Positions 16,655-33,805 of a stretch of 64,000 bases of DNA are shown piece by piece (the first letter of the stretch is position 1; each line of letters begins with the position of its first letter). Made by a program: the position numbers and the translations under genes. The stretch spans positions 1 to 64,000 of the forward strand of contig JAPLQS010000054.1 in the NCBI GenBank assembly GCA_026399575.1, read 5' to 3'. This DNA is from Nitrosospira sp. GTDB lineage: Bacteria > Pseudomonadota > Gammaproteobacteria > Burkholderiales > Nitrosomonadaceae. Below the pieces are notes generated by a model that saw nothing but the letters and a program-made list of their open reading frames with translations, was not told the DNA's origin and did not search any database.

Positions 16655-17659
16655 ATGAATAAATCTGTCTTGATCATCGGAGGGGCTGGATACATCGGCC
16701 CGGTGCTTACAGATCACCTGCTCACTGCAGGTTATAAAGTAAATTGTCTCGATCTGCTGCTCTACCAGAACAACACCTGCGTAATCCCATATTTGAGTAA
16801 CCCCAACTACCGGTTTATCTATGGTGATCTGCGCGACCAGAATGTGCTTGATCGAGCATTGCAGGGTGTCACGAATGTGATTCTGCTCGCGGGTCTTGTC
16901 GGGGATCCGATCACCAAAAAATATCCGGAGGCCTCTCATGCGATCAATGACGAAGGCATTTTAAGCTGCATTGATTTCCTCAATGGCAAGGGGTTGGATC
17001 GAGTGATTTTTGTCTCGACCTGTTCCAATTATGGGTTGATTAAATCAGATGAGCTTGCTGATGAGACCTATCCCCTGAGCCCGCTTTCACTTTATGCGAA
17101 GTCCAAGGTAGCTGCGGAACAGCATTTACTGACCAACAGAGGGAAGGTTGACTACACACCAACAATCTTGCGGTTTGCTACAGCCTTCGGTCTTGCTCCG
17201 CGTATGCGTTTTGATCTCACGGTCAATGAGTTCACCCGCGAATTGGCTTTGGGACGAGAGCTGCTGGTTTTTGACGCACACACTTGGCGTCCGTATTGCC
17301 ATGTCATGGATTTTGCCAGACTCATTCAGCAAGTGATTGAAGCGCCCCACGCCAAAATTGCTTTTGAAGTGTTTAACGCCGGTGGCGAGATTAACAACTC
17401 CACCAAACAGGGTATTATCGACACCATTCTTGCCTTATTGCCCGATGCAAAAGTGCGCTACCAAGAACATGGCTCTGATCCCCGCAATTACCGTGTTAAT
17501 TTTCAGAAAGTGCGCGAGACCCTTGGTTTTGAGCCAGAGTACACAGTTGATTACGGCGTGAAGGAATTGCTCAGTGCCATCCGCGAGCATATCTTTGATC
17601 GCGCCGATCTGATGCGCAATTTCCATGGCAATTACGAGATAGAATATCCGCTACCATGA
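16655..17659 (+). CDS. NAD-dependent epimerase/dehydratase heading the legionaminate-type operon
   Basis: 334 residues; strong site AGGGGAG before the ATG. GGAGYIG binds NAD, VSTCSNYG gives Ser and SLYAKSK gives Tyr-x3-Lys. It belongs to the extended SDRs but lacks the opening typical of LegB (the GDP-GlcNAc 4,6-dehydratase), so it is not confidently LegB even though it sits in that gene's place. It may supply the 4-keto sugar or an epimer used by LegC, whose start overlaps this stop by 4 bases (ATGA). Confidence 0.75.
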   Translation: MNKSVLIIGGAGYIGPVLTDHLLTAGYKVNCLDLLLYQNNTCVIPYLSNPNYRFIYGDLRDQNVLDRALQGVTNVILLAGLVGDPITKKYPEASHAINDEGILSCIDFLNGKGLDRVIFVSTCSNYGLIKSDELADETYPLSPLSLYAKSKVAAEQHLLTNRGKVDYTPTILRFATAFGLAPRMRFDLTVNEFTRELALGRELLVFDAHTWRPYCHVMDFARLIQQVIEAPHAKIAFEVFNAGGEINNSTKQGIIDTILALLPDAKVRYQEHGSDPRNYRVNFQKVRETLGFEPEYTVDYGVKELLSAIREHIFDRADLMRNFHGNYEIEYPLP

Positions 17660-18825
17660 CGCTTGCTCAATCCATTCAAGCAGCAATTTCTCAGGTGGTC
17701 GGCACTGGTCCAGTGGTTTTACACGAGCCGCGTTTTGCCGGCAACGAGTGGGCTTATCTCAAAGAATGCCTCGATTCGACTTTCGTCTCTTCAGTGGGTA
17801 AGTTCGTCGATCGTTTCGAAATTGATCTTGCTGCTTACACTGGCGCTAAGCATGCGGTGGCGGTGGTTAATGGCACCGCAGCTTTGCATGTAGCTCTGCG
17901 GCTGGGAGGGGTGCAGCCAGGCGACGAAGTGCTCATTCCTGCACTGACTTTTGTCGCGACTGCCAACGCTGTTGTCTATGGTGGGGCAACGCCGCATTTT
18001 GTCGACAGCGAAGAGTGCACTCTCGGGTTGGATCCCCGGGCGCTACGCGAATATCTGCAAGGTATCACCGATATCGACCAGAAGCAGTGTGTGAATCGCG
18101 CGACTGGTCGCGTGATCCGTGCGTTGGTGCCCATGCACACCTTTGGTCACCCCGTGGATATCGAAGGAACACTTGCCGTCGCTCGGGATTTTCATTTAAC
18201 ACTGGTGGAAGACGCGGCCGAGTCTCTGGGTAGTACTTTCCATGGGCGCCACACTGGTACCTTTGGCCTGATGGGCACGCTCAGCTTCAACGGCAACAAG
18301 ACCATCACCACCGGTGGTGGCGGAGCCATCCTTATCAATGATACGGAGTTAGCCAAGCATGCCAAACACCTGACCACCACCGCCAAGGTGTCTCATCGTT
18401 GGGAGTACCTGCACGATGAAATTGGCTACAATTATCGACTGCCTAATATCAATGCCGCTCTTGGCTGTGCCCAACTTGAACAGCTCCCTGACTTTCTGGC
18501 AGCGAAGCGCCGGATTTTTGAGCGTTACCAGGCTGCATTTGTCGGCGTGCCTCAGGTGCGACTTATTGCCGAACCAGAAGGATGTCACAGCAATTACTGG
18601 CTGCAGACAGTACTGCTGGATGAATCCGCCGCCGGAGAGCGCGATGCAATCTTGGCGACCACCAACGGCGCAGGGTTTATGACCCGCCCTGCTTGGACCC
18701 TGTTGCATCGTCTAGCACCATACCATGCATGCCCGAAGATGGAACTGCCAGTAGCCGAATCGCTGGAACGGCGATTGATCAATCTGCCGAGTAGCGCACA
18801 TCTCGGCATGGAGGGCGCGAGGTGA
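17656..18825 (+). CDS. legC: LegC-family PLP aminotransferase
   Basis: 389 residues, DegT/DnrJ/EryC1/StrS fold. The segment LSFNGNKTITTGGGGA holds the lysine that binds PLP, and HTFGHPVDI plus VEDAAESLGSTFHGRHTG match the LegC subgroup. LegC transfers an amino group to C4 of the 4-keto-6-deoxy sugar on the way to legionaminic acid. ATGA overlap with the upstream SDR and GTGA overlap with the NeuD-like gene show tight coupling. The aminotransferase clade is the best evidence that this operon makes a legionaminate rather than sialic acid. Confidence 0.87.
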   Translation: MTLAQSIQAAISQVVGTGPVVLHEPRFAGNEWAYLKECLDSTFVSSVGKFVDRFEIDLAAYTGAKHAVAVVNGTAALHVALRLGGVQPGDEVLIPALTFVATANAVVYGGATPHFVDSEECTLGLDPRALREYLQGITDIDQKQCVNRATGRVIRALVPMHTFGHPVDIEGTLAVARDFHLTLVEDAAESLGSTFHGRHTGTFGLMGTLSFNGNKTITTGGGGAILINDTELAKHAKHLTTTAKVSHRWEYLHDEIGYNYRLPNINAALGCAQLEQLPDFLAAKRRIFERYQAAFVGVPQVRLIAEPEGCHSNYWLQTVLLDESAAGERDAILATTNGAGFMTRPAWTLLHRLAPYHACPKMELPVAESLERRLINLPSSAHLGMEGAR

Positions 18826-19454
18826 TCAGGGTGCCGATCCTGCTGGTGGGCGCCGGTGGCCACGCCCGCGTTTGTATCGACGTAATCGAACAGGAAGGAC
18901 GTTTTGCCGTAGTCGGGCTGGTGGGTTTGCCCGATGAGGTTGGCACTAAGATCCTTGGCTACCCAGTGCTGGGCACGGATGCCGAATTACCAGACTTGCT
19001 CGGCGGCTCCGCCCATGCCTTGGTTGCTGTTGGTCAGATCAAGACCCCGGAGGCGCGGATGCGTCTATTCGATCTGCTTGAGCAAGGCGGCTGTACGCTG
19101 CCAGCCATCGTGTCGCCGCAAGCCTATGTGTCGGCCCACGCCACAGTGGGGGCGGGCACTATTGTCATGCATGGCGCCATCGTCAATGCCGGAGCGGTGA
19201 TCGGACGCAATTGCATCATCAATAGCCAGTCCCTTGTAGAGCATGACGTTGTGATTGCGGATCATTGCCACATTGCCACTGCGGTTGCGATCAACAGTGG
19301 CGTGCATATTGGTGCGGGTACCTTTATCGGCAGTAATTCCAGCGTGCGACAATGTATCAACATCGGCGAGCATTGCCTCATCGGCATGGGGCAGCGGGTA
19401 CTTGCTGATTGCGAAGCCGGAACCCACATGCCATCAGTAAAAAAATCATCTTGA
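18822..19454 (+). CDS. NeuD/PglD-like hexapeptide acyltransferase (LegH role possible)
   Basis: 210 residues. An N-terminal Rossmann-like part (LLVGAGGHARVCIDVIE) is followed by left-handed beta-helix repeats (ATVGAGTIVMHGAIVNAGA, AINSGVHIGAG), with the catalytic-type His in LVEHDVVI. NeuD and PglD/LegH proteins acetylate sialic acid or the 4-amino sugar nucleotide. In this position LegH (N-acetylation after LegC) is the simplest reading. The start is GTG within GTGA, overlapping legC; a second GTG at 18831 is possible. Confidence 0.8.
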   Translation: MIRVPILLVGAGGHARVCIDVIEQEGRFAVVGLVGLPDEVGTKILGYPVLGTDAELPDLLGGSAHALVAVGQIKTPEARMRLFDLLEQGGCTLPAIVSPQAYVSAHATVGAGTIVMHGAIVNAGAVIGRNCIINSQSLVEHDVVIADHCHIATAVAINSGVHIGAGTFIGSNSSVRQCINIGEHCLIGMGQRVLADCEAGTHMPSVKKSS

Positions 19455-20452
19455 AGACGCTGATTATCGCCGAGGCCGGCGTAAACCATAACGGCGATCT
19501 GGTATTGGCGCGACAATTGATCGATGTGGCCGCCGAGGCTGGTGCCGACCTTGTCAAATTTCAGACTTTCAGCGCGGATCGGTTGGTCACCATACACGCC
19601 GGGAAAGCAGAGTACCAGACCAAGACGACCGACGCCGGCGAATCTCAGCACGCCATGATTCGCCGGCTGGAACTGACACGTGACATGCATGACGCATTGA
19701 TTGTTCATTGTAAATTACGTGGAATCCAGTTTTTCTCCACTGGTTTTGACGTGGAAAGCATCGATCTGCTGGCGGAACTCGGGTTGGATCGCTTCAAGAT
19801 TCCCTCCGGTGAAATTACCAACTTGCCCTATCTGCGGCACGTCGGTCGTTACGGCAAGCCGGTGATTCTCTCCACCGGCATGGCCACCTTGGGTGAGATT
19901 GAGGCGGCACTGGAAGTGCTGGAGCATGCTGGCGTGTCGCGTGACCGCATTACCGTGCTTCACTGCAATACCGAATACCCCACGCCCATGGTCGATGTGA
20001 ATCTGCGCGCCATGCTTGCCATCCGCGATGCCTTCGATGTGACCATAGGCTACTCGGACCATACATCCGGCATCGAGGTGGCGATTGCTGCAGTGACCCT
20101 GGGTGCTGCAGTGATCGAAAAGCATTTCACCCTGGATCGCAACCTGCCCGGCCCAGATCATAAGGCCAGCCTCGAACCTAGTGAGCTCAAGGCAATGGTC
20201 ACGGCGATTCGCAATATCGAGGAAGCTTTAGGTGATGGCATTAAGCGTCTTTCCCCGAGTGAAGCAAAAAATAAACCGATCGTCCGCAAATCCATCGTTG
20301 CGGCGGTACCAATTCGCCAAGGTGAGGTCTTCTCAGCCAGTAATCTCAACACCAAACGCCCCGGTACGGGTATCTCGCCGATGCGCTGGGATGATATCAT
20401 TGGCCGCACTGCGCCTCGCGATTTTGTGGCAGACGAGTTGATTAAGCTATGA
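19451..20452 (+). CDS. legI: LegI/NeuB-family nonulosonic acid synthase
   Basis: About 333 residues. IIAEAGVNHNGDLVLARQL and ADLVKFQTF open the TIM barrel, EKHFTLDRNLPGPDH lines the active site, and the C-terminal antifreeze-like SAF domain covers roughly residues 275-333. The enzyme condenses phosphoenolpyruvate with the 6-carbon amino sugar to give the 9-carbon acid. TTG at 19451, overlapping the upstream stop as TTGA, is preferred; another TTG lies at 19409 inside the upstream gene. The next gene overlaps as ATGA. Confidence 0.87.
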   Translation: MKTLIIAEAGVNHNGDLVLARQLIDVAAEAGADLVKFQTFSADRLVTIHAGKAEYQTKTTDAGESQHAMIRRLELTRDMHDALIVHCKLRGIQFFSTGFDVESIDLLAELGLDRFKIPSGEITNLPYLRHVGRYGKPVILSTGMATLGEIEAALEVLEHAGVSRDRITVLHCNTEYPTPMVDVNLRAMLAIRDAFDVTIGYSDHTSGIEVAIAAVTLGAAVIEKHFTLDRNLPGPDHKASLEPSELKAMVTAIRNIEEALGDGIKRLSPSEAKNKPIVRKSIVAAVPIRQGEVFSASNLNTKRPGTGISPMRWDDIIGRTAPRDFVADELIKL

Positions 20453-21612
20453 CTCGCAAGATTTGTGTCGTCACCGGTACTCGTGCCGAATACGGCTTGC
20501 TACGCTGGGTGATGGAAGGCATTCGCGAGACGCCGGGTCTCGATCTGCAGATAATCGTTACTGGCATGCATCTTTCGCCGGAATTCGGCCTCACCTACCG
20601 CGAGATCGAGAAGGACGGGTTCCTCATCGACCATAAAGTAGAGATGCTGCTCAGTTCCGATAGTCCGACGGGATTGGCCAAGTCCATGGGGTTGGGATTG
20701 ATCGGTTTTGGCGATGCCTTGCAGCAACTCCATCCGGACTTGATGCTGGTACTGGGTGACAGGTTCGAGATTTTTTCTGCTGTTGCTGCTGCCATGTTTG
20801 CTCGCATTCCGGTGGTGCACCTTCACGGGGGTGAAGCCACCGAGGGGCTCATTGATGAGCCTATTCGCCATTCTGTAACCAAGATGTCTCACCTGCATTT
20901 TGTAGCCGCGGAAAAATACAGGAGAAGAGTAATCCAGTTGGGGGAGCATCCAGACCGGGTGTTTTTGGTGGGCGGACTCGGCATCGACAATATCAAGAAA
21001 CTGACTCTGCTCGACCGCCCGACGCTGGAAGCCTCTCTCGGATTTGGACTGGGAGTCAGGAACCTTCTGATTACTTTTCATCCGGTGACTCTGGAAAATG
21101 CGACTTCTGCTCAGCAAATGGCAGAGCTGCTCGCAGCCCTGGAAAAACTAGAGGACACGCACCTAATTTTCACCATGCCCAACGCCGATACCGACAGTCG
21201 TGTATTGCTTGACATGGTAGAGCAATTCGTTACTAGTCATGCCAATACCCGTGCCTATACGTCTTTGGGTCAGTTGCGTTATCTCTCCTGCATCCAGCAT
21301 GTCGATGCCGTAGTAGGTAACTCTTCCAGCGGCTTGACCGAAGTGCCGAGCTTTGCTAAAGGTACGATAAATATCGGCGACCGGCAGCGGGGGCGTCTCA
21401 AGGCGGAGAGCGTGATTGATTGCGTGCCGGAGCAGACAGCCATTGCCGCTGCACTGGCGCAGCTTTATTCGCCGGCATTTCAGACAAAGCTCAAGGCTGT
21501 TCGTAATCCCTACGGCGATGGCGGCGCGAGTAACCGAGTGGTGGAAACACTGGCAAAGATTCCGCTGGAAGGTATCATAAAAAAACGTTTCTTTGATTTG
21601 CCGGAACTATGA
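20449..21612 (+). CDS. legG: LegG/NeuC-family hydrolysing UDP-sugar 2-epimerase
   Basis: 387 residues, GT-B-like epimerase_2 fold. VVTGTRAEYGLL at the N-terminus, LVLGDRFEIF, HLHGGEATEGLIDE, and VVGNSSSGLTEVPSF match NeuC/LegG. It releases UDP (or GDP) and inverts C2 to give the free amino sugar that LegI uses. The pairing with LegC rather than a lone NeuB/NeuC supports the legionaminate reading, though NeuC and LegG are hard to separate by motif. Confidence 0.87.
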   Translation: MTRKICVVTGTRAEYGLLRWVMEGIRETPGLDLQIIVTGMHLSPEFGLTYREIEKDGFLIDHKVEMLLSSDSPTGLAKSMGLGLIGFGDALQQLHPDLMLVLGDRFEIFSAVAAAMFARIPVVHLHGGEATEGLIDEPIRHSVTKMSHLHFVAAEKYRRRVIQLGEHPDRVFLVGGLGIDNIKKLTLLDRPTLEASLGFGLGVRNLLITFHPVTLENATSAQQMAELLAALEKLEDTHLIFTMPNADTDSRVLLDMVEQFVTSHANTRAYTSLGQLRYLSCIQHVDAVVGNSSSGLTEVPSFAKGTINIGDRQRGRLKAESVIDCVPEQTAIAAALAQLYSPAFQTKLKAVRNPYGDGGASNRVVETLAKIPLEGIIKKRFFDLPEL

Positions 21613-22490
21613 GAATTGTTTTCATTGGTGCAGTAGAATTTTCTCGCAGCGCTCTGAATCGGCTTATTGAAATTCAAGCTGATTTAGTTGGGGTCTGTAC
21701 TCTGCAGGAATCCAGTGTTAACGCCGATCACAGCGACCTCAGTATTATTTGCGAGTCCAGCGGCATCCCTTGGATATACTCGCCGGACATCAATTCGGAA
21801 GAGACCCTTCAATGGGTGTCCGGCAAACGGCCCGATGTCATTTTTTGTTTTGGCTGGTCAAGGTTGCTTCGAGAGAAGCTATTAAAGCTAGCGCCGCTGG
21901 GTGTGGTTGGCTTCCACCCTGCAGCTTTGCCAGCTAATCGAGGCAGACACCCCATCATCTGGGCACTGGTACTCGGTTTGAAGGAAACGGCATCAACCTT
22001 CTTTTTCATGGATGAAGGGGCAGACCGTGGAGATATTCTTTCTCAGGAAAGGGTTGAGATCGAAGATGAGGACAATGCAACTACACTTTATGAAAAGGTC
22101 ACTCTTTCTGCCTTGAGCCAAATCCAGGCATTTGTACCTCGCTTAGCCTCAGGCTCATTTTCTAGGGTGGCGCAGGATCATCTGCATGCCAATACTTGGC
22201 GGAAAAGGGAGAGAGCAGATGGACAGATAGATTGGAGAATGTCCGCGCATAGCATCCATAACCTTGTCCGTGCTTTGACTAAGCCTTATGTTGGCGCGCA
22301 TTTTCTTTATCAGGACCGGGAATTCAAAGTCTGGGATACAAAACTGGTGATGGATGTGCCGCAAAATATTGAGCCGGGAAAAATCATTGAGGTTGACGAT
22401 AATGGGCCTGTAGTACGATGTGGCGAGTTGGGCATCCGGTTGTTGAAGACTGAGCCATTGTTCAGACCTGCCCTCGGAGAATACCTATGA
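21609..22490 (+). CDS. Sugar N-formyltransferase (methionyl-tRNA formyltransferase fold)
   Basis: 293 residues. The catalytic segment reads GFHPAALPANRGRHPIIWAL, the HPSLLP-like motif of N10-formyl-tetrahydrofolate-dependent formyltransferases, with IWAL and the Asp of EGADRGDIL also in place. Close relatives (ArnA N-domain, VioF, FdtF) formylate amino sugars. Here it lies between LegG and a PIG-L deacetylase with 4-base overlaps on both sides, so an N-formyl group on the nonulosonate is likely. It is distinct from the shorter formyltransferase at 39953-40678. Confidence 0.85.
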   Translation: MRIVFIGAVEFSRSALNRLIEIQADLVGVCTLQESSVNADHSDLSIICESSGIPWIYSPDINSEETLQWVSGKRPDVIFCFGWSRLLREKLLKLAPLGVVGFHPAALPANRGRHPIIWALVLGLKETASTFFFMDEGADRGDILSQERVEIEDEDNATTLYEKVTLSALSQIQAFVPRLASGSFSRVAQDHLHANTWRKRERADGQIDWRMSAHSIHNLVRALTKPYVGAHFLYQDREFKVWDTKLVMDVPQNIEPGKIIEVDDNGPVVRCGELGIRLLKTEPLFRPALGEYL

Positions 22491-23149
22491 GAACTCTAGT
22501 TATCGCACCTCATCCCGATGACGAAATCCTTGGTTGTGGCGGCACCTTGCTGCGCCGCAAAGCTGAAGGTGTGAAGTTAGGCTGGTTGATAGTCACAGGC
22601 ATATCCGAGCAAACTGGTTGGTCGGCAGTACGGGTTCGGCAACGAGATGTGGAGATTGCCAAAGTCGCCAAGTTGGTTGGTTTCAGCGAAGTCTTCAACC
22701 TGCGCTTGCCTACTGCGCATTTGGACAGTTTACCTATGGCCGACCTAGTCGATCAGTTTTCCGCCATATTCAAATCTTTTCAACCTGATGAGGTGCTCTT
22801 GCCGCATCGCGCGGATGCCCATACCGACCATCGGGTGGTGTTTGACGTAGCATCAGCGTGTACCAAGTGGTTTCGATATCCTTCCGTGCGGCGTGTGCTG
22901 GCGTACGAAACGATATCCGAGACCGGGTTTGGTCTTGATGCAGACTGCACCTTTTATCCTAATGTTTTTATTGATATCAGTAATTTCTTGGAACGCAAGC
23001 TGGAAGTAATGTCGATCTATCAGTCTGAGCTAGGAACTTTCCCCTTTCCACGGAGTGTCCAGGCTATCCAGGCTCTGGCTACCTTGCGTGGCGCAACCTC
23101 TGGGTTTATGGCGGCAGAGGCGTTTCAACTGTTGCGAGAGCGGCAGTAA
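22487..23149 (+). CDS. PIG-L/LmbE-family N-deacetylase
   Basis: 220 residues starting MRTLVIAPHPDDEILGCGG, where PHPDDE supplies zinc ligands and the catalytic Asp; HTDHR supplies a further His. PIG-L enzymes remove N-acetyl groups from GlcNAc-type sugars. In this operon it probably removes an acetyl so that the overlapping formyltransferase can act, or makes a free amine. A second family member with the same opening is in the Pse operon (42830-43513). Confidence 0.87.
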   Translation: MRTLVIAPHPDDEILGCGGTLLRRKAEGVKLGWLIVTGISEQTGWSAVRVRQRDVEIAKVAKLVGFSEVFNLRLPTAHLDSLPMADLVDQFSAIFKSFQPDEVLLPHRADAHTDHRVVFDVASACTKWFRYPSVRRVLAYETISETGFGLDADCTFYPNVFIDISNFLERKLEVMSIYQSELGTFPFPRSVQAIQALATLRGATSGFMAAEAFQLLRERQ

Positions 23150-23181
23150 TCAGTGGGTGTATAAACTTGACCAAAGAATGT

Positions 23182-24231
23182 ATGAAAAGTGACGCGCAAA
23201 ATAAAGACTGGCGAAAGGCTTTGCTTCCATTTAATGCCACTTTGCGGCAGGCCATCCACAATCTGGATGAAGCGGCCCTGCAGATTTTGCTAATTATTTC
23301 TCCTGATGGAACGTTGATTGGCACGCTCACCGATGGGGATATTCGGCGCGGTCTGTTGCGCGGACTGGACTTGAACAGTTCTATCGAATCACTAATCCAC
23401 CGCGAACCGTTGGTTGTACCGCCGCAGTTGGATCGCGACACAGTGCTTCAATTAATGCATGCCAATAAAGTTCACCAGTTGCCGGTAGTTGGTGAAGACC
23501 GACGCGTTGTGGGACTGCACGTGTGGGATGAACTTATGATTCCTGGAAAGCGTTCTAATTTGATGGTGATTATGGCCGGTGGCCAAGGCACTCGATTGCG
23601 CCCCCATACTGAAAACTGTCCCAAGCCGCTGCTGCCGATAGCGGGTAGGCCGATGCTGGAACACATCATCGAGCGAGCCAAGGGAGAGGGGTTCGAACAC
23701 TTTGTGTTGGCCATCCATTATCTTGGCCATATGATCGAAGATTATTTTGGAGATGGCGGTCGCTGGCAGGTGAAAATCGATTACCTGCGCGAAGAGTCAC
23801 CACTGGGAACAGCAGGGGCCATTGGTTTGCTGAACCCACGTCCCGATGTCCCATTTCTGGTTACTAATGGGGATGTCCTAACCGATATCCACTACGGTGA
23901 ACTTCTCGATTTTCACTGTCGCCATAGTGCGTCAGCCACAATGGCAGTGCGCCTGCATGAGTGGCAGCATCCATTTGGTGTCGTCCGAACCAAGGGAGTC
24001 GACATCATCGGATTTGAAGAAAAACCTGTCACCCGAAGCCATATCAATGCTGGTATCTACGTGCTGGAACCCGGCGCCCCGGATGTCCTGAATACCGGCG
24101 AACACTGTGATATGCCTACGCTATTCAGTCGCCTGCAGGAGCGTGCTGCACGAATCATCGTCTATCCGATGCATGAACCCTGGCTGGATGTGGGACGTGT
24201 AGATGATCTAGAGCGGGCACAGGCAAGGTGA
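23182..24231 (+). CDS. ptmE: CBS-domain sugar-1-phosphate nucleotidyltransferase (PtmE-like)
   Basis: 349 residues from ATG 23182 (TTG 23167 is also in frame). Two CBS domains cover about residues 15-110 (GTLTDGDIRRGLLRG; HQLPVVG), followed by a nucleotidyltransferase domain with MAGGQGTRLRPHTENCPKP. This layout is that of Campylobacter PtmE, which activates GlcN-1-P with GTP in the GDP-based legionaminic acid route. PtmA and PtmF, the partners making GlcN-1-P from Fru-6-P, are not in the window. It ends the 16.6-24.2 kb operon. Confidence 0.8.
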   Translation: MKSDAQNKDWRKALLPFNATLRQAIHNLDEAALQILLIISPDGTLIGTLTDGDIRRGLLRGLDLNSSIESLIHREPLVVPPQLDRDTVLQLMHANKVHQLPVVGEDRRVVGLHVWDELMIPGKRSNLMVIMAGGQGTRLRPHTENCPKPLLPIAGRPMLEHIIERAKGEGFEHFVLAIHYLGHMIEDYFGDGGRWQVKIDYLREESPLGTAGAIGLLNPRPDVPFLVTNGDVLTDIHYGELLDFHCRHSASATMAVRLHEWQHPFGVVRTKGVDIIGFEEKPVTRSHINAGIYVLEPGAPDVLNTGEHCDMPTLFSRLQERAARIIVYPMHEPWLDVGRVDDLERAQAR

Positions 24232-24341
24232 TCAGGTCACCCGGAATCCTCCCTTCCGAATGAAGGCCTTGGAGAAGAGCAAGTGGTTCGCCGTCTTATT
24301 TCGAAAGTTCTCGGACTAATTGGGTGTGCCCTAGTATCTAG

Positions 24342-24425
24342 CTGTACGACGACTACGACAAACACCGTCCACGCATGGCCATGGGCGGGGCCACACCCAA
24401 GCAGCGGATGGCCATGGCCGCGTAA
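24342..24425 (+). pseudogene. Transposase integrase-core C-terminal scrap
   Basis: One frame reads LYDDYDKHRPRMAMGGATP and a few more residues before TAA, like the YNxxRPHxxLGG(x)TP end of IS3/IS481-type DDE integrases. Nothing else of the element remains. It lies immediately before the AT-rich GMC oxidoreductase gene and marks the boundary where base composition changes. Confidence 0.4.
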
Positions 24426-24466: not shown

Positions 24467-25954
24467 ATGATCAAAAAAACAGTTTTGGTAGTAGGTGGCG
24501 GGACGGCAGGACTAACGATTGCAAATAATCTCCAAGATTATTTTAATGTTGTTGTTATAGAAAAAAGCAAATACAAAAAATATCCTCCCATTTATAGAGT
24601 CCCCCTGCTTATCGGTCTGCTCTATAGAAAAAAGACACTAAAATACATACTAAAAAGAGAGCTCCTTCTAGCAAATGGGAGGCGCATACCATTCTTTGAG
24701 TCAAATGTCCTAGGCGGGGCATCGGTTATAAATGGATGCGTTCACACAATTGGATCCAAGTCAATTTGGAACAATGTCCTGAGCAACTTCGATTCTGATT
24801 ATCACGAACTGATCGATAGCTACAATAAGCTATATACAACTCATCAGGGTGAGAATAATAAAATTAACTTGATGCTCGCCCCGCAAAATGAAATTGACAT
24901 GGCGTTCATTCTGGCGCTGAATAATAATTTGGTGCCCACTGGAGATATGAACTTTTCCGATGGAGAAAATTGCGGCCCAATTTACGATACTACCAAGGGA
25001 TTTTTCAGATCATCGGTTCTATCTCTCATACAAAAAAAAGGATTTGAAGTATCTTCAAGCGAAGTCGTCAAGCGGGTTTTGTTCGAAAATGGCAACAACG
25101 CTGTCGGTGTTGAGACCGATAAAAGAATTATAAAATCGGACTATGTCATATTATGTGGTGGGGTTATAGGCACATGCCGCCTACTTTTGCGGGAAAAGAA
25201 AGATAAAGAAGCGGTCAATCACTTTAGACTTCTAGATATTGGGCGCGGGGTGCAAGACCATACGAATCTAAGGGTAAATGTAACAACTAAAACAGATATA
25301 GGCTCACTAAATGAGGTGTTTCGGAGTTTTCGAAAGAGACTGTCGATATTTGTCAATCATTTTTCCGGAAGACATACTTTGATGGTGGGCACAGGAGCAA
25401 CCTCTGGTGTTCATCTAGATCTTAATGGAGATGGAAAAGTAGATACGAGAATTCATGTGGTCCAATTCTCCGAAACAGGTAGACATGGTAGTGATGGTAA
25501 ATATTTTTTTGACAAACCAGGATTTTCGCTCTCTATTACTCCAATCCACCCGGCATCTCGAGGGGTAATCGAGTTGTCCGGAGGGGATGTGACAGTAGAT
25601 CCAATGTACCTATCGAATGATGAAGATATTGAAATTCTAAAATTATCCTTAGGTTATTGCTTAAAACTTCTTCGTAGCGAGCCTATGTGTTCTTTTGTGG
25701 AAGAAATAGTAAGCGAACATTTGATAGAGAGTGACCCGGAAAAATATATTAATGAAAATATCTATAGCGGCCACCACCTAATTGGAGGAACCCACGACGC
25801 AATAGATAAAGATTTTAATATTAAGGGAGTGAGTGGATTGTATGTGTGCGACGCTAGCCTCCTTAAAGAATACCCAGCAAGCAATATTCATTCCTCGGTT
25901 GTCTTGATTTCTGATATCTTTTCTAAACGATTTATTTCGAAGAATTCATCGTGA
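24467..25954 (+). CDS. GMC-type FAD-dependent oxidoreductase
   Basis: 495 residues. The dinucleotide-binding motif VLVVGGGTAGLTIANNL is at residues 5-21. LGGASVINGCVH fits the GMC signature (GGSSxxNG), and HHLIGGTHDAIDKDFNIKG with GLYVCDASLLKEYPASN fits the C-terminal GMC end with the active-site His. GMC enzymes oxidise alcohols to aldehydes or ketones. The gene is much AT-richer than the legionaminate operon and follows a transposase scrap, so it was probably acquired separately. Its substrate may be a sugar, given the aminotransferase and CMP-transferase downstream (inference). Start has GGGAGG about 9 bases before. Confidence 0.8.
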   Translation: MIKKTVLVVGGGTAGLTIANNLQDYFNVVVIEKSKYKKYPPIYRVPLLIGLLYRKKTLKYILKRELLLANGRRIPFFESNVLGGASVINGCVHTIGSKSIWNNVLSNFDSDYHELIDSYNKLYTTHQGENNKINLMLAPQNEIDMAFILALNNNLVPTGDMNFSDGENCGPIYDTTKGFFRSSVLSLIQKKGFEVSSSEVVKRVLFENGNNAVGVETDKRIIKSDYVILCGGVIGTCRLLLREKKDKEAVNHFRLLDIGRGVQDHTNLRVNVTTKTDIGSLNEVFRSFRKRLSIFVNHFSGRHTLMVGTGATSGVHLDLNGDGKVDTRIHVVQFSETGRHGSDGKYFFDKPGFSLSITPIHPASRGVIELSGGDVTVDPMYLSNDEDIEILKLSLGYCLKLLRSEPMCSFVEEIVSEHLIESDPEKYINENIYSGHHLIGGTHDAIDKDFNIKGVSGLYVCDASLLKEYPASNIHSSVVLISDIFSKRFISKNSS

Positions 25955-26061
25955 TTATGTTTATTCATCGTAGAATTACTTCCGTTCAATAAACTCTACT
26001 TCAAATCAGATCAAGTTCCCGAGGAAGCGGATGCGTCCGCAGTTCGGTATGAAAGGTTTCG

Positions 26062-26220
26062 GTGCAGGCCTGTCTGGGTCCGGTAGGTATAGCGAAGAAC
26101 AAAATCGAAGAGGTGCGGCGGCTGATGCTGCTCCTCCAGGCAACTTTCAATCAGAAACTACTCTACTTCTTCGCAGAACAGAACGCTAGGAAGATGCTCA
26201 TTCAGCACGTGAATCTTTGA
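26062..26220 (+). other. Short unassigned reading frame in the 25955-26221 gap
   Basis: A GTG-started frame of 52 codons (KNKIEEVRRLMLLLQATF in the middle) ends one base before the methyltransferase pseudogene. It matches no family I recognise and could be the tail of a deleted gene. The rest of the gap holds nothing recognisable. Confidence 0.2.
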
Positions 26221-26221
26221 C

Positions 26222-26860
26222 ATGACAACATACAAGACCTGTACGGAATACTGGCTGGACCCTAAAACCGACGCATTTCGGGGCGAGTTTGAGGCGATGT
26301 ACCGGGATATAGCGGATCCTTGGGGCTGTGAGGCAGGTAAGTCCTCACTCAACAACCAAATATTCATGGACATCATCTTCAATAGCAATCGGCGTTTCGA
26401 CAGAATTTTAGATATTGGCTGTGGTCTGGGAGGATTGCTGAATAAAATCAAGATGCGAAACCAGGGGGGGTATGTGTTGGGCCTGGATGTTTCGCTGACT
26501 GCAATTGAAAAAGCAAAGGAGCGCTATCCTGGTTTGAATTTCGACTGTCGGAACATTTTGAAAGATGAGTTTAAGGAGGATAACTTCGATCTGGTCGTTC
26601 TCTCCGAGGTGCTCTAGTACATATTGGATGACCTGCCAACTTTTTTTACCCGAGTTTCGAGCATGATGTCGGCTACCGGTTCTCTGGCGATTCATCAATA
26701 TTTTCCGGCAGACCAGCGCTTCGGCAGGGAATTAATCGAGGGTTTGCCTGGGTTTCTGAATTTTATGGAAGGTCGAGCGGATTTATCAAGGCAGCATATG
26801 TATACAAGCCATCATCACGATGGCGTTGTGTTTCTATCCACTTTTCAAAAGGAAGAATAG
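26222..26860 (+). pseudogene. SAM-dependent methyltransferase broken by an in-frame TAG
   Basis: Two stretches in the same frame, 26222-26617 and 26621-26860, are separated only by TAG at 26615-26617. Together they make a 211-residue class I methyltransferase with ILDIGCGLGGLLNKI (SAM motif I), VLGLDVSLTAIEKAK and NFDLVVLSEVL-stop-YILDDL. A Trp codon TGG changed to TAG is the simplest origin. The C-terminal half still reads cleanly, so the lesion is recent or a sequence error. It ends one base before the KdnA-like gene. Confidence 0.8.
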
Positions 26861-26861
26861 T

Positions 26862-28034
26862 ATGCCTGGTTTCGAGGTGTTTGGAGAAGAGGAGCGAAAG
26901 GCTATTAATGATCTATTTGACGCCAATGGTGGAATTCTGTTTGCGCATGGTTTTGACGCATTGCGTAAAGGTATATACAAAGTACGGGAATTCGAGTCCA
27001 TTTTATCTGAAAAATTTCATGTGCCGCATGCACAGGCTGTCTGTTCTGGATCGGCTGCACTTAGAGTTGCATTGGCGGCACTTGATATTGGTCCAGGTGA
27101 TGAAGTTATTATTCCTGCTTTTACCTTTGTAGCTACGGCAGAAGCGATCATCCAGTCTGGTGCAGATCTGGTCATCATCGATATTGATGACACATTTAAT
27201 CTGGACCCGGATGCATTTGCAGCGGCCATTAGCGAGCGTACCAAAGCCGTCATTCCCGTCCATATGATGGGTGCGCCGGCCGCTATGGATCGGATTGTTG
27301 AAATAGCACGAGCGCGCGGCATAAGAGTGCTTGAAGATTCTGCTCAAGGTGTCGGTGGGCAGTTTAAAGGACGATATCTGGGCACTATCGGAGATATTGG
27401 TTGCTACAGTTTCGATGCGGGCAAGGTGATTATTACCGGGGAAGGCGGGATGGTCGTGACTGCTGACAAAGATCTCTTTATCAGAGCGCGAGCTTATCAT
27501 GATCATGGACATGAATATTCGACGATGGTTGGAAGGGGGGAGGAAGGTACGATAGGGGAGGGGTTTAACTATCGCATGACTGAACTGCAGGGCGCTATCG
27601 GTATTGTCCAGCTTGGTAAACTGGACATGATTCTGTCTTCGCAGCGAGCTAACAAGGCAAAACTCAAGAAAAGGCTGGTCGAGAATGGGTTTCCTTTCCG
27701 ATATAGGAGGATTCTTGACGAAGGTGAGCTTGGCGACTCCCTGATATTTATGCTGAAGGATAGAGCTCAGACACAGGCTTTCCTGGCTGGCATGAAGAGG
27801 GAGGGCCTTGGTACAAAGAATGTTCCAGATGCGATACGATGGCATTTCGCGAAGCACTGGTCCCATATGTTTCAGAAACATGGTTGGTACCGCGATACTT
27901 ACAAAACGGAATGGCAGCGGTCGGCTGATATACTGGAGACCGCGATAGCTCTGCCGATCATGATCCGAATGACTGATGAGCGGATCGAAGAAATCGCGCA
28001 TAAGATACTCAAGATAACGGCTGAAGTTACCTGA
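26862..28034 (+). CDS. KdnA-like PLP sugar aminotransferase
   Basis: 390 residues from ATG 26862, preceded by AAGGAAG; the ATG-like start at 26820 lies in the pseudogene. The opening MPGFEVFGEEERKAINDLF and the overall layout resemble KdnA, which aminates 8-oxo-Kdo to 8-amino-Kdo in Shewanella. CYSFDAGKVIITGEGG carries the PLP lysine and VLEDSAQGVGG the PLP-stacking region. KdnB, the dehydrogenase partner of KdnA, is absent, but a GMC oxidoreductase lies upstream. TGATG overlap with the CMP-sugar synthetase ties the two products together. Similarity to KdnA is from memory; the substrate is not proven. Confidence 0.75.
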   Translation: MPGFEVFGEEERKAINDLFDANGGILFAHGFDALRKGIYKVREFESILSEKFHVPHAQAVCSGSAALRVALAALDIGPGDEVIIPAFTFVATAEAIIQSGADLVIIDIDDTFNLDPDAFAAAISERTKAVIPVHMMGAPAAMDRIVEIARARGIRVLEDSAQGVGGQFKGRYLGTIGDIGCYSFDAGKVIITGEGGMVVTADKDLFIRARAYHDHGHEYSTMVGRGEEGTIGEGFNYRMTELQGAIGIVQLGKLDMILSSQRANKAKLKKRLVENGFPFRYRRILDEGELGDSLIFMLKDRAQTQAFLAGMKREGLGTKNVPDAIRWHFAKHWSHMFQKHGWYRDTYKTEWQRSADILETAIALPIMIRMTDERIEEIAHKILKITAEVT

Positions 28035-28738
28035 TGCTGTTAGCTATTATCCCCGCACGAGGCGGATCAAAAGGCATACCTAGAAAGAATATGGCTCTTC
28101 TAGGGGGGAGACCATTGGTCGAGTACTCGATCGAGGCAGCCAAGAAGAGTCGATTCATCGATGAAATCCTTCTCTCCACGGATGATGACGAAATTGCAAG
28201 TGTGGGGCGGCACTTTGGTTTGGACGTAAGCTACCGTCGCCCCGCGGAACTAGCCGAGGATGCGACGGCGATGATTGACACGTTAGAGCATGGTCTTCAT
28301 TGGATTGGGAATGCTCGTGGCAGGTTGCCGGATGAAGTTATTCTGCTGCAGCCCACATCACCACTACGTTCTGTGCAAGATATTGACGGTGCCATAGCTC
28401 TTTTTCACGAGTCAGGGGCGCCTTCCCTGGTTAGCGTGCATCCCATGGGCGAGCATCCCTGTGAATGCATCGTTGGTAACTCGAAAGAATGGAAATACTT
28501 GGCATCCCCTCCGGGGGGCGCTGTTCGCCGGCAGGACTATGAAAATAATTTCTTTTTTATCAATGGGGCCATATATCTCGCCGGAACTAAGACATTGTTG
28601 TCCCGGCGCAGTTTCGTCTATCCTCAAGAGACAGTAATGTTTGTTATGCCTCGGGAAAGGGGGATGGATATAGACACATACCTTGATCTGAATATTGCTG
28701 AAGCGATTATTGGTTTTGCTGGTCCGAATGCTGGATAA
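28034..28738 (+). CDS. legF: CMP-nonulosonate cytidylyltransferase (NeuA/LegF family)
   Basis: 234 residues. IIPARGGSKGIPRKNMALLGG is broken by no gap and holds the CTP-binding loop; LLQPTSPLRSVQDID and GMDIDTYLDLNIAEA (metal-binding Asp pair) are typical of NeuA/LegF/PseF. It activates the 9-carbon acid with CTP before transfer. Because the 16.6-24.2 kb operon lacks its own cytidylyltransferase, this is the likely LegF, although coupling to the KdnA-like gene leaves open a different acid. PseF (43510-44211) serves the other pathway. Confidence 0.82.
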   Translation: MLLAIIPARGGSKGIPRKNMALLGGRPLVEYSIEAAKKSRFIDEILLSTDDDEIASVGRHFGLDVSYRRPAELAEDATAMIDTLEHGLHWIGNARGRLPDEVILLQPTSPLRSVQDIDGAIALFHESGAPSLVSVHPMGEHPCECIVGNSKEWKYLASPPGGAVRRQDYENNFFFINGAIYLAGTKTLLSRRSFVYPQETVMFVMPRERGMDIDTYLDLNIAEAIIGFAGPNAG

Positions 28739-28831
28739 AGGTACCAGAATTGCACGCGGACTTCCCCTGTATCTGTTCATCGTCGACATACGTATAAAGA
28801 TAACGACAAGCTGAAATAATTGAATACGAAA

Positions 28832-29986
28832 ATGGCAGTGACCGATATTATCATTCTTACTGAATCGCCATTTAGCAGGAGAGACTACGACCGCTTTGGA
28901 GTGGAGCTGCTAAGCAAAAGATTTCAAGTTTCAATTCTGGATTGCACGCGATGGTTGAAACCGGAGTTCTGGGATAAATATCAAGAGACTGCTTACCGCT
29001 GCCCGGGCTATGTATCTGTTACTGATCTTGGCTCTTTGATTGGCCACATTCATAACCCGGTTAAAGCCATAGCGATCGACTATCTTGGTAGCTGTGCCGG
29101 AAGTAAGCGCATCAGGAAAGAGTTCAAAGATTGCAATATTTCAAGAGCCATTGTTCTTCACGGACTTATACCCACGCCAACCATTAGATGGCCAGACAAG
29201 GTTGGTTTGTTCATCTCTTCAAACACGCCACTTTCCATGCTTAAAAAGATCCACAGGCGAAATAAACAAATATTAAGTCCAGATCCGGCACCCGAGATCG
29301 CATTATTGGCCGGCACTGCAGGTTTGAAAGATAAAAGGCTACATGGTCTGGTGCACAGGATATGGGCACATTCTTTTGATTTTGACATTTATTTGGAAAA
29401 TAAAGGGCAGGCATCTACCTCAGTTGCACCTTATGCTGTGTTCCTCGATGAAGATATGGTGCATCACTCGGATTACACTCATTTGGAAATCAAGTTGCCC
29501 GCAACTGAAGAAGCTTACTACACCTCAATGAATAGTTTTTTCCAGAAGTTTGAGCATGAATTCGGCATACCAGTTAAAGTCGCGGCCCATCCACGCTCCC
29601 GTTATGATTTACGCCCACAACTATGGAATCGCCGCACAACAATTTATGGAAAAACCGCTCAGTTGGTGCGTGATGCCACAATAGTCTTGTGTCATCAATC
29701 AACTTCTGTCAGTTTTGCGGTGATGTGGCGCAAACCCCTTCTATATTTGACGACTAATGAATTGATGTCGAGTTATCTTCAGCCTAGGATCGCTCTTGGA
29801 AGTACCCTCTTGCGAGCCCATTTAATCAACATAGACGGGCACAATGGGCTGCCGGCCATAGAGTCGCTTCTTGCGGTGGATGAGGGGGCTTATGCAAAAT
29901 ACACCGACGAATACATAAAACGGACAGGCACCCCCAATTTTCCAGCATGGCATATATTTTCTGAATATATACAGAATTCTTTGTGA
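28832..29986 (+). CDS. Unrecognised protein, possible GT-B sialyltransferase-like enzyme
   Basis: About 384 residues (ATG 28832; TTG 28820 also possible). I do not recognise the family with certainty. The C-terminal half contains VKVAAHPRSRYDLRP and then VLCHQSTSVSFAVMWRKPL, the HP and S/T pattern seen in polysialyltransferase-like and CDP-glycerol transferase-like GT-B enzymes. It directly follows the CMP-sugar synthetase gene in the same direction, fitting a transferase using that donor (inference). No signal peptide or membrane segment is evident. Confidence 0.5.
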   Translation: MAVTDIIILTESPFSRRDYDRFGVELLSKRFQVSILDCTRWLKPEFWDKYQETAYRCPGYVSVTDLGSLIGHIHNPVKAIAIDYLGSCAGSKRIRKEFKDCNISRAIVLHGLIPTPTIRWPDKVGLFISSNTPLSMLKKIHRRNKQILSPDPAPEIALLAGTAGLKDKRLHGLVHRIWAHSFDFDIYLENKGQASTSVAPYAVFLDEDMVHHSDYTHLEIKLPATEEAYYTSMNSFFQKFEHEFGIPVKVAAHPRSRYDLRPQLWNRRTTIYGKTAQLVRDATIVLCHQSTSVSFAVMWRKPLLYLTTNELMSSYLQPRIALGSTLLRAHLINIDGHNGLPAIESLLAVDEGAYAKYTDEYIKRTGTPNFPAWHIFSEYIQNSL

Positions 29987-30042: not shown

Positions 30043-31248
30043 TCACTGCCATAGAGACAGGGCCTTGTCCGCCAAAGTCTGCCCGATGGCCAAGGACGCA
30101 GTCGCTGCCGGCGAGGGCGCATTGCAGACCTGGATTACGTTGCCACTGATACGAATATCGAAGTCATCGAGCAGGCGCCCATTCCGGTCGCAAGCCTGGG
30201 CTCGAATGCCGGCACCACCCGGCTCAAGATGATCTGCCCGTATCTCGGGAATGAGTTTCTGCAGCGCACTTACAAATGCTCTTTTGCTGATTGAGCGGTG
30301 GAACTCCCCCAACCCGGTTCGCCAATATTTGCCAACTACTTTGCGAAATCCAGGCCAGGTGATCGCCTCCCAGGTATCGTGCAGGTTGAAATCTGTTTTG
30401 CGGTAAGCTTCCCGCCCGAAGGCAAAGACGGCATTTGGGCCGCACTCGATGCCGCCACTAATCATGCGGGTAAAATGTACGCCAAGAAACGGAAAGGCCG
30501 GGTCAGGTACGGGATAGATTAGATGGTTCACAAGATGAAGTGCCGACTGTTTAAGCTTGTAGTACTCGCCGCGGAACGGCAGGATGCATAGCGATAGCTC
30601 CGGTTCGGTTACGCGGGCCAGGCGATCCGATTGCAGGCCGGCACAGACAACGGTGATCTGTGTAGTATAAGTACACGACTCGCCTATCACCTCGGTCTGA
30701 TTACCATGGCGTCGGATATCCAGGATACGTTCGCCAAGAACAATTTCCGCGCCCATCTCAGTCAGCTTCTCTGCATACTTTCTAGCCACTGCAACGTAAT
30801 CCACGATTCCGGTCTGAGGTACAAAGAGTCCACGAATACCGTTGCAATGTGGCTCAATTTCACGGATCTCAGCCGGCTGTATAAACCTTAGCCCCTCGAG
30901 ACCGTTTGCCACCCCCCGGCGGTGGAGTTCATCCAACCTGGACACTTCCACTTCAGTGGTTGCAACTACGATTTTGCCGCATATTTCATGCGGAATCGAC
31001 TCCTGCCGGCAAAAGGCCAGCAGTTGTTGGTATCCCGTGCGGCAATTGACAGCTTTAAGTGACCCTGGGCGATAATAAAGCCCCGAGTGAATCACTCCGC
31101 TATTATGCCCGGTCTGATGCTGCGCCAGGTTCGATTCTTTCTCGATGAGCATCAAGCGAGTGCCTGGCCGCGCTTGCAAGATACGCAGCGCGGCGGCCAG
31201 GCCGAGGATGCCGCCGCCAATTATAATGACATCGATATTATTGGTCAT
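30043..31248 (-). CDS. lhgO: L-2-hydroxyglutarate oxidase-like FAD enzyme (LhgO family)
   Basis: 401 residues, DAO-type FAD fold. VIIIGGGILGLAAALRI binds FAD; HNSGVIHSGLYYRPGSLKA and GGAGIRAQACDRNGRLLDDF match LhgO/YgaF, which oxidises L-2-hydroxyglutarate to 2-oxoglutarate and passes electrons to the membrane quinone pool. Length equals the family norm. Its place inside a glycan locus, divergent from a 2-oxoglutarate-dependent dioxygenase, is unusual and may signal oxidation of another 2-hydroxy acid. Confidence 0.82.
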   Translation of the reverse strand: MTNNIDVIIIGGGILGLAAALRILQARPGTRLMLIEKESNLAQHQTGHNSGVIHSGLYYRPGSLKAVNCRTGYQQLLAFCRQESIPHEICGKIVVATTEVEVSRLDELHRRGVANGLEGLRFIQPAEIREIEPHCNGIRGLFVPQTGIVDYVAVARKYAEKLTEMGAEIVLGERILDIRRHGNQTEVIGESCTYTTQITVVCAGLQSDRLARVTEPELSLCILPFRGEYYKLKQSALHLVNHLIYPVPDPAFPFLGVHFTRMISGGIECGPNAVFAFGREAYRKTDFNLHDTWEAITWPGFRKVVGKYWRTGLGEFHRSISKRAFVSALQKLIPEIRADHLEPGGAGIRAQACDRNGRLLDDFDIRISGNVIQVCNAPSPAATASLAIGQTLADKALSLWQ

Positions 31249-32472: not shown

Positions 32473-33805
32473 GAGGGTGTCCTGAATTTTGTGTAAACGG
32501 AATTCATTAATGCTGCGGCATCCTATCCCCGAACTGAATAGTAAAGCGGTTAAGCGCAGCTTTCCAGTCCCTTATTGGCATCGTCCATTTTCGGCTGATG
32601 TTTTGCTGTGCAAGATAGAATAGTTTTAACAGTGCCTCATCAGATGGAAACGAACCACGGTTCTTGGTAATTTTCCTCAGGCTCATGTTCAGCGATTCAA
32701 TTGCATTGGTGGTGTAGATCACTCGCCGGATCTCCGGCGGGTAGTCAAAGAACGGCGTAATACGCGCCCAGTTGCGCCGCCAGCTTTGGCCAATAGGCGG
32801 ATAGCTCTCATTCCATTTGGCCTCAAACGCAGTGAGCTGTTGTTCGGCTTCTTCAACTGTGGCAGCGGTATAAATAGCACGCAGATCAGTTGCCACCTCC
32901 TTGCGCAGTTTCCAGCTGACGTAGTTCAGGCCATGGCGCACCATGTGCACGATACACAGCTGCACGGCGGTCTTGGGAAACGCGGTTTCAATGGCTTCCG
33001 GGAAGCCCTTCAGCCCATCTACGCAGGCGATGAAGATGTCAGACACGCCGCGATTCTTGAGTTCGGTCACCACTTGCAACCAGAACTTGGCCCCCTCGGT
33101 CTGGGCGATCCAGATACCCAACAGTTCCTTCTCGCCATCCAGCTTGATGCCCAGCGCCAGATACACGGCCTTGATGCGCACCGCACCGTTATCGCGCACT
33201 TTGGCGTGGATGCAGTCGAGATAGACGATAGGGTACAACGCATCGAGCGGGCGGGACTGCCAGGTTTTGACATCCTCGATGACGGCATCGGTCACCGATG
33301 AGATCAGGCTGGGCGATACCTCGGTGCCGTACATCTCTTCCAGGTGGCCTTGTATCTCGCGCACCGTCATGCCGCGGGCGTATAGGGACAGTATCTTGTC
33401 GTCGAATCCCGTCCAGCGGGTCTGGTGCTTGGGGATGAGTTGGGGTTCAAAGCTACCGTTGCGGTCGCGCGGGATTTCTATCGGCAGTTCGCCGAATTCG
33501 CCCTTGAGCGTCTTGCGGCTGGTGCCGTTGCGGGTATTGCCAGCGGCATTGGCGACTGGTTCATGTTTGTCATGCCCTAGGTGCGCTGCTATCTCGGCTT
33601 GCAGGGCGCGTTCTACAATGGCCTTGGTGAGTTGCTTAAGCAGACCATGCTCGCCAATCAGGTCTTCAGGTTTCTGGTAGCCAGCCAGCAGTTGGTCGAT
33701 CAGATCCGGCGATGGTGCTTTTTGTACTGCGGTCATGTTCACTCCTTTTCAAAGTTAGGCAGTTTCCTGCCAAATGACCGTTTACACAAAAATTCTTACA
33801 CCCCC
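32473..33805. mobile_element. Intact IS256-family insertion sequence, 1333 bp
   Basis: Imperfect 28-bp terminal inverted repeats (32473-32500, starting GAGGGTGT and ending GTGTAAACGG; 33778-33805) frame one transposase gene. AAGTCTTG occurs directly outside both ends (32465-32472 and 33806-33813), a perfect 8-bp target duplication typical of IS256. It inserted between two convergent gene ends; the rejoined flank has AGTGTAA and TTACACT arms, so it may have split a terminator hairpin. The perfect duplication argues for recent movement. Confidence 0.92.
32507..33742 (-). CDS. IS256-family mutator-type transposase
   Basis: 411 residues, full length. The DDE residues lie in YLDCIHAKVRDNG, ACVDGLKGFPEAI and TTNAIESLN; QLCIVHMVRH is the mutator-family signature segment. 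It catalyses copy-out-paste-in movement of the element at 32473-33805. Ribosome-binding site AAAGGAG lies just before the start. No frameshift is visible, so it should be active. Confidence 0.95.
   Translation of the reverse strand: MNMTAVQKAPSPDLIDQLLAGYQKPEDLIGEHGLLKQLTKAIVERALQAEIAAHLGHDKHEPVANAAGNTRNGTSRKTLKGEFGELPIEIPRDRNGSFEPQLIPKHQTRWTGFDDKILSLYARGMTVREIQGHLEEMYGTEVSPSLISSVTDAVIEDVKTWQSRPLDALYPIVYLDCIHAKVRDNGAVRIKAVYLALGIKLDGEKELLGIWIAQTEGAKFWLQVVTELKNRGVSDIFIACVDGLKGFPEAIETAFPKTAVQLCIVHMVRHGLNYVSWKLRKEVATDLRAIYTAATVEEAEQQLTAFEAKWNESYPPIGQSWRRNWARITPFFDYPPEIRRVIYTTNAIESLNMSLRKITKNRGSFPSDEALLKLFYLAQQNISRKWTMPIRDWKAALNRFTIQFGDRMPQH

Follow-up and report, generated by a model that had tools for sequence, protein, structure and literature searches.

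A KdnA-like aminotransferase with GMC or iron-dependent partners in legionaminic-acid operons: candidate genes for 8-amino nonulosonic acids

Described systems and the Nitrosospira locus

KdnB oxidises Kdo (3-deoxy-D-manno-oct-2-ulosonic acid) in the synthesis of Kdo8N, i.e. 8-amino-3,8-dideoxy-Kdo (PMC5125639). In this KdnB-KdnA route of Shewanella oneidensis an alcohol is oxidised, then the side chain of the sugar acid is aminated by KdnA, a pyridoxal 5'-phosphate (PLP) aminotransferase. The second system of reference is the legionaminic acid pathway of Campylobacter and Legionella (LegB, LegC, LegH, LegG, LegI, PtmE and LegF/PtmB). We analysed a stretch of 64,000 nucleotides of Nitrosospira sp. 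(contig JAPLQS010000054.1, positions 1 to 64,000; hereafter the window), whose segment 24467-28738 encodes a GMC oxidoreductase, an aminotransferase of the KdnA clade, which we call KdnA2, and a cytidine monophosphate (CMP) transferase, NeuA2. The segment is best read as the tailoring end of a legionaminic-acid operon. It is, in our judgement, rather probable that the GMC enzyme takes the place of the dehydrogenase in oxidising a hydroxyl of the side chain, that KdnA2 aminates the product and that NeuA2 activates it; the reactions and the carbon concerned are those that we infer.

KdnA2 keeps the KdnA fold and the N-terminus MPGFE, but it is linked to a nonulosonate synthase and a NeuA-type CMP-transferase, not to Kdo genes, and its proposed oxidising partner is either a GMC enzyme or an iron alcohol dehydrogenase (Fe-ADH) of a clade other than KdnB. 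The legionaminic acid pathway is matched by the whole upstream operon, into which the window inserts an oxidoreductase and a second aminotransferase, plus a formyltransferase and a PIG-L deacetylase. In Acinetobacter, AciE and EpaA/EpaB are 8-epimerising nonulosonate enzymes, EpaA being a CMP-transferase domain fused to a reductase (PMC12053666); these oxidoreductases also alter C8 of a 9-deoxy nonulosonate, but they are short-chain or aldo-keto reductases that invert C8, without an aminotransferase. Finally, the O-polysaccharide of Tenacibaculum (Flexibacter) maritimum, a fish pathogen, contains an 8-amino-3,5,7,8,9-pentadeoxynonulosonate, tentatively of L-manno configuration (PMC3210612). 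This sugar, known to us as a structure only, is of the type predicted here as end product. Our literature search found no biosynthesis genes or pathway for an 8-amino nonulosonic acid and no paper that connects legionaminic acid and an aminotransferase with a GMC enzyme or an iron alcohol dehydrogenase; the genome paper of T. maritimum does not describe its O-antigen genes. Each of the three elements (KdnA chemistry, legionaminate synthesis, GMC enzymes) has been described before; we class their combination as a new variant on the KdnB-KdnA kind of route, without counting KdnA2 as a KdnA.

KdnA2 and its partners

An earlier note on this DNA had proposed the GMC, KdnA-like and CMP-transferase genes, the last two overlapping; Pfam and the comparison with the Protein Data Bank (PDB) bear out all three, and the overlap is one base in TGATG. 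Although the mechanical open reading frame of the aminotransferase begins at 26820, translation almost certainly starts at the ATG 26862 (MPGFEVFGEEERK), judging from the sequence, since this N-terminus is common to the relatives (MPGFE in nearly all, MPGYE in two) and the preceding codons lie in the methyltransferase frame 26222-26860. Among solved structures Shewanella KdnA (5k8b) is the best relative, with 271.7 bits vs 171.3 for the next, i.e. about 100 bits ahead; it is also the best match of the predicted structure (TM, template modelling score, 0.87), and a profile built from KdnA2 and three KdnA is nearest to Shewanella KdnA by 235 bits.

Phylogeny had been set beforehand as a check. 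In a maximum-likelihood tree of 43 aminotransferases (support given as paired values), KdnA and KdnA2 form one clade (100/97), apart from LegC (100/100) and PseC (100/98), yet the window protein and nine relatives make up a subclade of their own, KdnA2 (100/99; 98/99 with two intermediates). Shewanella KdnA clusters outside it, with Bacteroidota and gammaproteobacterial KdnA (100/99). KdnA2 is sister to or inside KdnA, a rare clade of which ten loci were found, in five phyla. A LegC or PseC identity was rejected, the scores reaching 197 of 420 and 199 of 423.5 bits respectively and the protein falling outside both clades. An identity as KdnA proper was also rejected on account of the separate clade, the other partners and the lack of a KdnB-type Fe-ADH in the window's genome, KdnA being kept as a mechanism analogue.

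A scan of 84,980 species genomes by exact short peptide patterns gave nine KdnA2 loci besides the window, 57-76% identical; as the scan relied on such patterns, the true number of loci is higher than ten. The hosts belong to Thermodesulfobacteriota, Nitrospirota, Campylobacterota, Bacteroidota and Pseudomonadota, to which the Olavius Delta 4 symbiont adds. Nonulosonate synthase genes are present in all ten loci, and a NeuA-type CMP-transferase directly follows KdnA2 in nine; in the tenth (L007) a more distant NeuA stands at the operon head. KdnA2 lies beside a legionaminate operon in 7/10 loci, and the three others (L010-L012) have the order NeuB-NeuC-KdnA2-NeuA. At the opposite, none of the 45 ordinary KdnA loci with flanks carries NeuB, LegC or GMC. 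Wider sampling of the window's class, Flavobacteriaceae, Campylobacterales, Desulfovibrionales and Nitrospirota brought no further KdnA2, just two intermediate KdnA (L138 in genome G338 and L139 in G1376), from the window's class and Nitrospirota. These are 47-49% identical and have an Fe-ADH and a NeuB-type synthase nearby; they may show an earlier stage of a switch from Kdo to nonulosonate.

The earlier note had left the acceptor open between a Kdo-like and a nine-carbon acid. An oxidase and an aminotransferase acting on a nine-carbon acid are well supported by these genomic data, and Kdo is an unlikely substrate, given the constant association of KdnA2 with a NeuB-type synthase and, in nine of ten loci, its place directly before a NeuA-type CMP-transferase. 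One could also take KdnA2 for a plain KdnA that provides 8-amino-Kdo to lipopolysaccharide, the GMC enzyme replacing KdnB, in line with the wider clade that KdnA and KdnA2 share. This is very improbable: about 20 residues are diagnostic between the two subclades, the partners differ, and KdnA2 is far rarer, e.g. in one of 397 Flavobacteriaceae genomes vs about 248 with KdnA-level matches.

Within KdnA2, the three proteins of the NeuB-NeuC loci share changes absent from every legionaminate-type KdnA2, several of them beside the presumed PLP lysine 188; at position 162 a conserved Gln is replaced by Trp. These changes fit a different substrate, but as the three proteins form one clade they are suggestive only.

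NeuA2 stands apart from PseF in the tree (97/98), and the PseF model gives 140 of 206 bits, below its cut-off; NeuA2 is a supported group against PseF alone. The CMP-transferase homologues of the window's genome are NeuA2, PseF and one distant match, so that NeuA2 is the sole LegF candidate. As it is the only close CMP-transferase besides PseF, an acid of the legionaminate type must be activated by this KdnA2-coupled enzyme.

The oxidoreductase slot

The GMC enzyme of the window (495 residues) passes the Pfam cut-offs for both GMC_oxred_N (8.5e-7) and GMC_oxred_C (1e-10). It shares with the superfamily of choline dehydrogenase and alcohol oxidases intact flavin adenine dinucleotide (FAD)-binding and GMC motifs and a presumed catalytic pair, His437/His475, while being very divergent from solved or modelled members. 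We know of no GMC superfamily member acting on a nonulosonic acid.

The slot after PtmE is taken by a GMC gene in two legionaminate loci, those of the window and of Campylobacterales (L014/L140), the two enzymes being 51-52% identical. The same slot is occupied by Fe-ADH in four legionaminate loci: the Delta 4 symbiont (L144/L013), Desulfovibrionales (L141/L007), Magnetobacteriaceae (L146/L009) and Nitrospirae (L015). In the first two, Fe-ADH is followed by the same methyltransferase (48-50%) as follows the window GMC. A fifth Fe-ADH directly precedes KdnA2 in L008. These KdnA2-linked Fe-ADH of five loci form one clade, 53-63% identical, with 30-39% identity to KdnB. The NeuB-NeuC loci L010-L012 carry a second GMC family, 56-66% identical among themselves and about 25% to the window GMC; here a GMC oxidase was apparently recruited a second time, independently. 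This second family is betA-like with the canonical His-Asn motif (L010:9910-11523, L011:13704-15320, L143:11638-13242).

GMC is thus found in five of the ten KdnA2 loci and Fe-ADH in the five others, never both (Fisher p=0.008, or p=0.0013 with the Fe-ADH of the two intermediate KdnA loci added); the earlier proposal, which was to fall if GMC never co-occurred with the aminotransferase, withstands this check as it does that of the phylogeny. At E up to 1e-5 no GMC match was obtained in any of the five Fe-ADH genomes; the window, L010 and L014 come from genomes in which no Fe-ADH exceeds the cut-off. In particular KdnB, previously noted as missing, is absent from the window, and the whole genome, 95% complete, has a single match, below cut-off.

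The G+C content of the GMC gene, 39% vs 48-56% for the leg genes, and the adjoining transposase remnant indicate that it arrived from elsewhere, plausibly from a low-GC source like Campylobacterales. With the methyltransferase pseudogene downstream, they could also mean that GMC is a passenger brought by an insertion element and foreign to the pathway, another oxidoreductase feeding KdnA2 or the module decaying. We regard this as doubtful. The GMC relative of the Campylobacterales genome has an identical place in the operon, and window-type GMC occurs nowhere else in 385 sampled genomes: it is present in 1/200 Campylobacterales, the one bearing KdnA2, and in 1/185 of the window's class, the window's own. 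Three other KdnA2 loci have a GMC of the second family; the window GMC keeps its motifs; its genome has no Fe-ADH above cut-off; and the low G+C may merely reflect a low-GC donor such as Campylobacterales, the L014 GMC being at 32%. A search of a plasmid collection returned nothing beyond distant DegT and GMC relatives.

Proposed route and neighbouring genes

Our preferred reading, in which GMC serves KdnA2, would proceed as follows. LegB, LegC, LegH, LegG, LegI and PtmE would supply a nonulosonic acid of the legionaminate type; on this acid the GMC flavoenzyme would oxidise a free hydroxyl, most likely C8-OH, to a ketone, which KdnA2 would transaminate; NeuA2 would then make the CMP sugar, CMP-5,7,8-triamino-3,5,7,8,9-pentadeoxynonulosonate. 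The neighbouring formyltransferase possibly N-formylates the product. In the sister loci the KdnA2-specific iron alcohol dehydrogenase would perform the oxidation. A 9-deoxy legionaminate has two free hydroxyls, C4 and C8, its C9 being a methyl. We retain C8 because these two are the sole candidates, because KdnA modifies Kdo at its far end and because an 8-amino-9-deoxy nonulosonate exists in T. maritimum. In L010-L012, whose core set has no LegB or LegC, the substrate would rather be a neuraminate (Neu)-like acid, and the second GMC family probably oxidises its primary C9-OH; a 9-amino Neu-type acid is thus predicted for Sediminibacterium roseum SYL130 (L011). More generally KdnA2 could be an aminotransferase for nonulosonate side chains whose oxidising partner is exchangeable, being drawn from one Fe-ADH clade or from two distant GMC families. 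The products would be CMP-8-amino-legionaminate here and, in Bacteroidota and beta-proteobacteria, CMP-9-amino-Neu-type acids, which would amount to a biosynthetic route to amino-nonulosonates; for this wider proposal we see the scales as evenly balanced.

KdnA2 might alternatively aminate C4 of the nonulosonate, the ketone of an earlier nucleotide sugar, or the sugar once CMP-activated. Legionaminate has its second free hydroxyl at C4, an oxidoreductase adjacent to PtmE could mean a GDP-sugar (guanosine diphosphate) substrate, and most DegT aminotransferases are generally known to use nucleotide-linked keto-hexoses. However, the nearest characterised relative, KdnA, aminates an ulosonic acid at its terminal carbon, KdnA2 is coupled to the CMP-synthetase and not to hexose steps, and it also accompanies NeuB-NeuC alone in L010-L012, a core set without 4-keto-6-deoxy hexose genes. 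Amination at another site is thus unlikely.

Several points weigh against the C8 route that we favour. KdnA works on a primary aldehyde; C8 of legionaminate would be a ketone, which KdnA2 would have to accept. The ten loci are a small sample and not fully independent: counting the NeuB-NeuC clade once raises the p-value of the GMC/Fe-ADH exclusivity to 0.018. Moreover in L012 the GMC of the second family is on the same contig but about 19 kb away, and the L011 and L012 genomes carry Fe-ADH genes outside the locus. Finally the foreign base composition, the transposase remnant and the broken gene could betray a module recently shuffled or decaying.

If the route holds, KdnA chemistry extends from Kdo to nine-carbon sugar acids, and the KdnA2 module provides candidate genes for 8-amino nonulosonic acids, so far seen as glycan structures. 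In the same operon slot a flavin oxidoreductase apparently replaces an iron alcohol dehydrogenase. A free side-chain amine would render a sialic-acid-like sugar of the cell surface zwitterionic, and the enzymes of the module could be tools for making amino-sialic acids.

The legionaminic acid operon spans 16655-24231, where LegB (by synteny alone), LegC, the acetyltransferase, LegG, LegI and PtmE co-occur (Table 1). The tree of nonulosonate synthases separates LegI from PseI without support, so that the type of acid rests on the neighbouring genes and the model scores. A formyltransferase and a PIG-L deacetylase amid legionaminate genes are particular to the window, although a distant formyltransferase is encoded close to KdnA2 in the Delta 4 locus.

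Table 1. Features of the legionaminate operon, the KdnA2 segment and their borders in the window
Feature	Position	Strand	Basis
LegB-like NAD-dependent 4,6-dehydratase/epimerase	16655..17659	+	syntenic relatives in L140, L144, L141, L146; LegB model below cut-off (69 of 475 bits)
LegC aminotransferase, first amine of the legionaminate pathway	17656..18825	+	TIGR04181, 537 bits (cut-off 420); LegC clade 100/100
LegH-like NeuD/PglD-family N-acetyltransferase	18822..19454	+	TIGR03570 above cut-off
LegI/NeuB-family nonulosonate synthase	19409..20452	+	TIGR03569, 503 bits, above cut-off
LegG/NeuC-family hydrolysing 2-epimerase	20449..21612	+	TIGR03568, 486 bits, above cut-off
Sugar N-formyltransferase (ArnA-N/Fmt-like), putative role here	21609..22490	+	Pfam PF00551 and PF02911 above cut-off
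PIG-L family de-N-acetylase, putative role here	22487..23149	+	Pfam PF02585 above cut-off
PtmE-like CBS + nucleotidyltransferase	23167..24231	+	PF00571 and PF00483; in six loci the immediate neighbour upstream of the GMC/Fe-ADH slot
Transposase C-terminal remnant, LYDDYDKHRPRMAMGGATPKQRMAMAA*	24300..24424	+	translation; just upstream of GMC
GMC oxidoreductase, proposed nonulosonate alcohol oxidase/dehydrogenase in place of Fe-ADH	24467..25954	+	Pfam, motifs, L014 relative, slot synteny
Methyltransferase pseudogene, in-frame TAG at 26615	26222..26860	+	48-50% relatives after Fe-ADH in L141 and L144
KdnA2, KdnA-like PLP aminotransferase, proposed amine installer; putative PLP Lys188 from alignment	26862..28034	+	
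NeuA2, candidate CMP-nonulosonate synthetase coupled to KdnA2	28034..28738	+	PF02348; best PDB match CMP-NeuAc synthetase
GT-B-fold protein, probable glycosyltransferase	28820..29986	+	no Pfam match; ~25% identical relatives near KdnA2 in L007, L009, L013, L014 (two), L015

The transposase remnant resembles the ends of insertion-sequence transposases. The methyltransferase gene, between GMC and the aminotransferase, is nearly full-length with its single in-frame stop, which could reflect decay or an assembly error. As Fe-ADH is followed by intact relatives both in the Delta 4 symbiont and in Desulfovibrionales, methylation probably belongs to the ancestral module.

Downstream of NeuA2, the GT-B-fold protein is possibly a nonulosonate transferase; its fold neighbours are generic GT-B members (NeuC-type epimerases, TagF/TarL, capsule synthases), so that no donor specificity can be assigned. 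The region further contains a DAO-family FAD oxidoreductase at 30043-31248, L-2-hydroxyglutarate-oxidase-like by eye, a 29% relative of which flanks the legionaminate operon in L140 (18711-19841), and a Mutator/IS256-type transposase gene at 32507-33742, recognised by eye only. A second, divergently placed locus of the pseudaminate type (PseB, PseC, PseF and a second synthase) lies at 38956-46375 and includes a DegT aminotransferase (38956-39975), a formyltransferase-like gene (39956-40678) and a PIG-L deacetylase (42833-43513).

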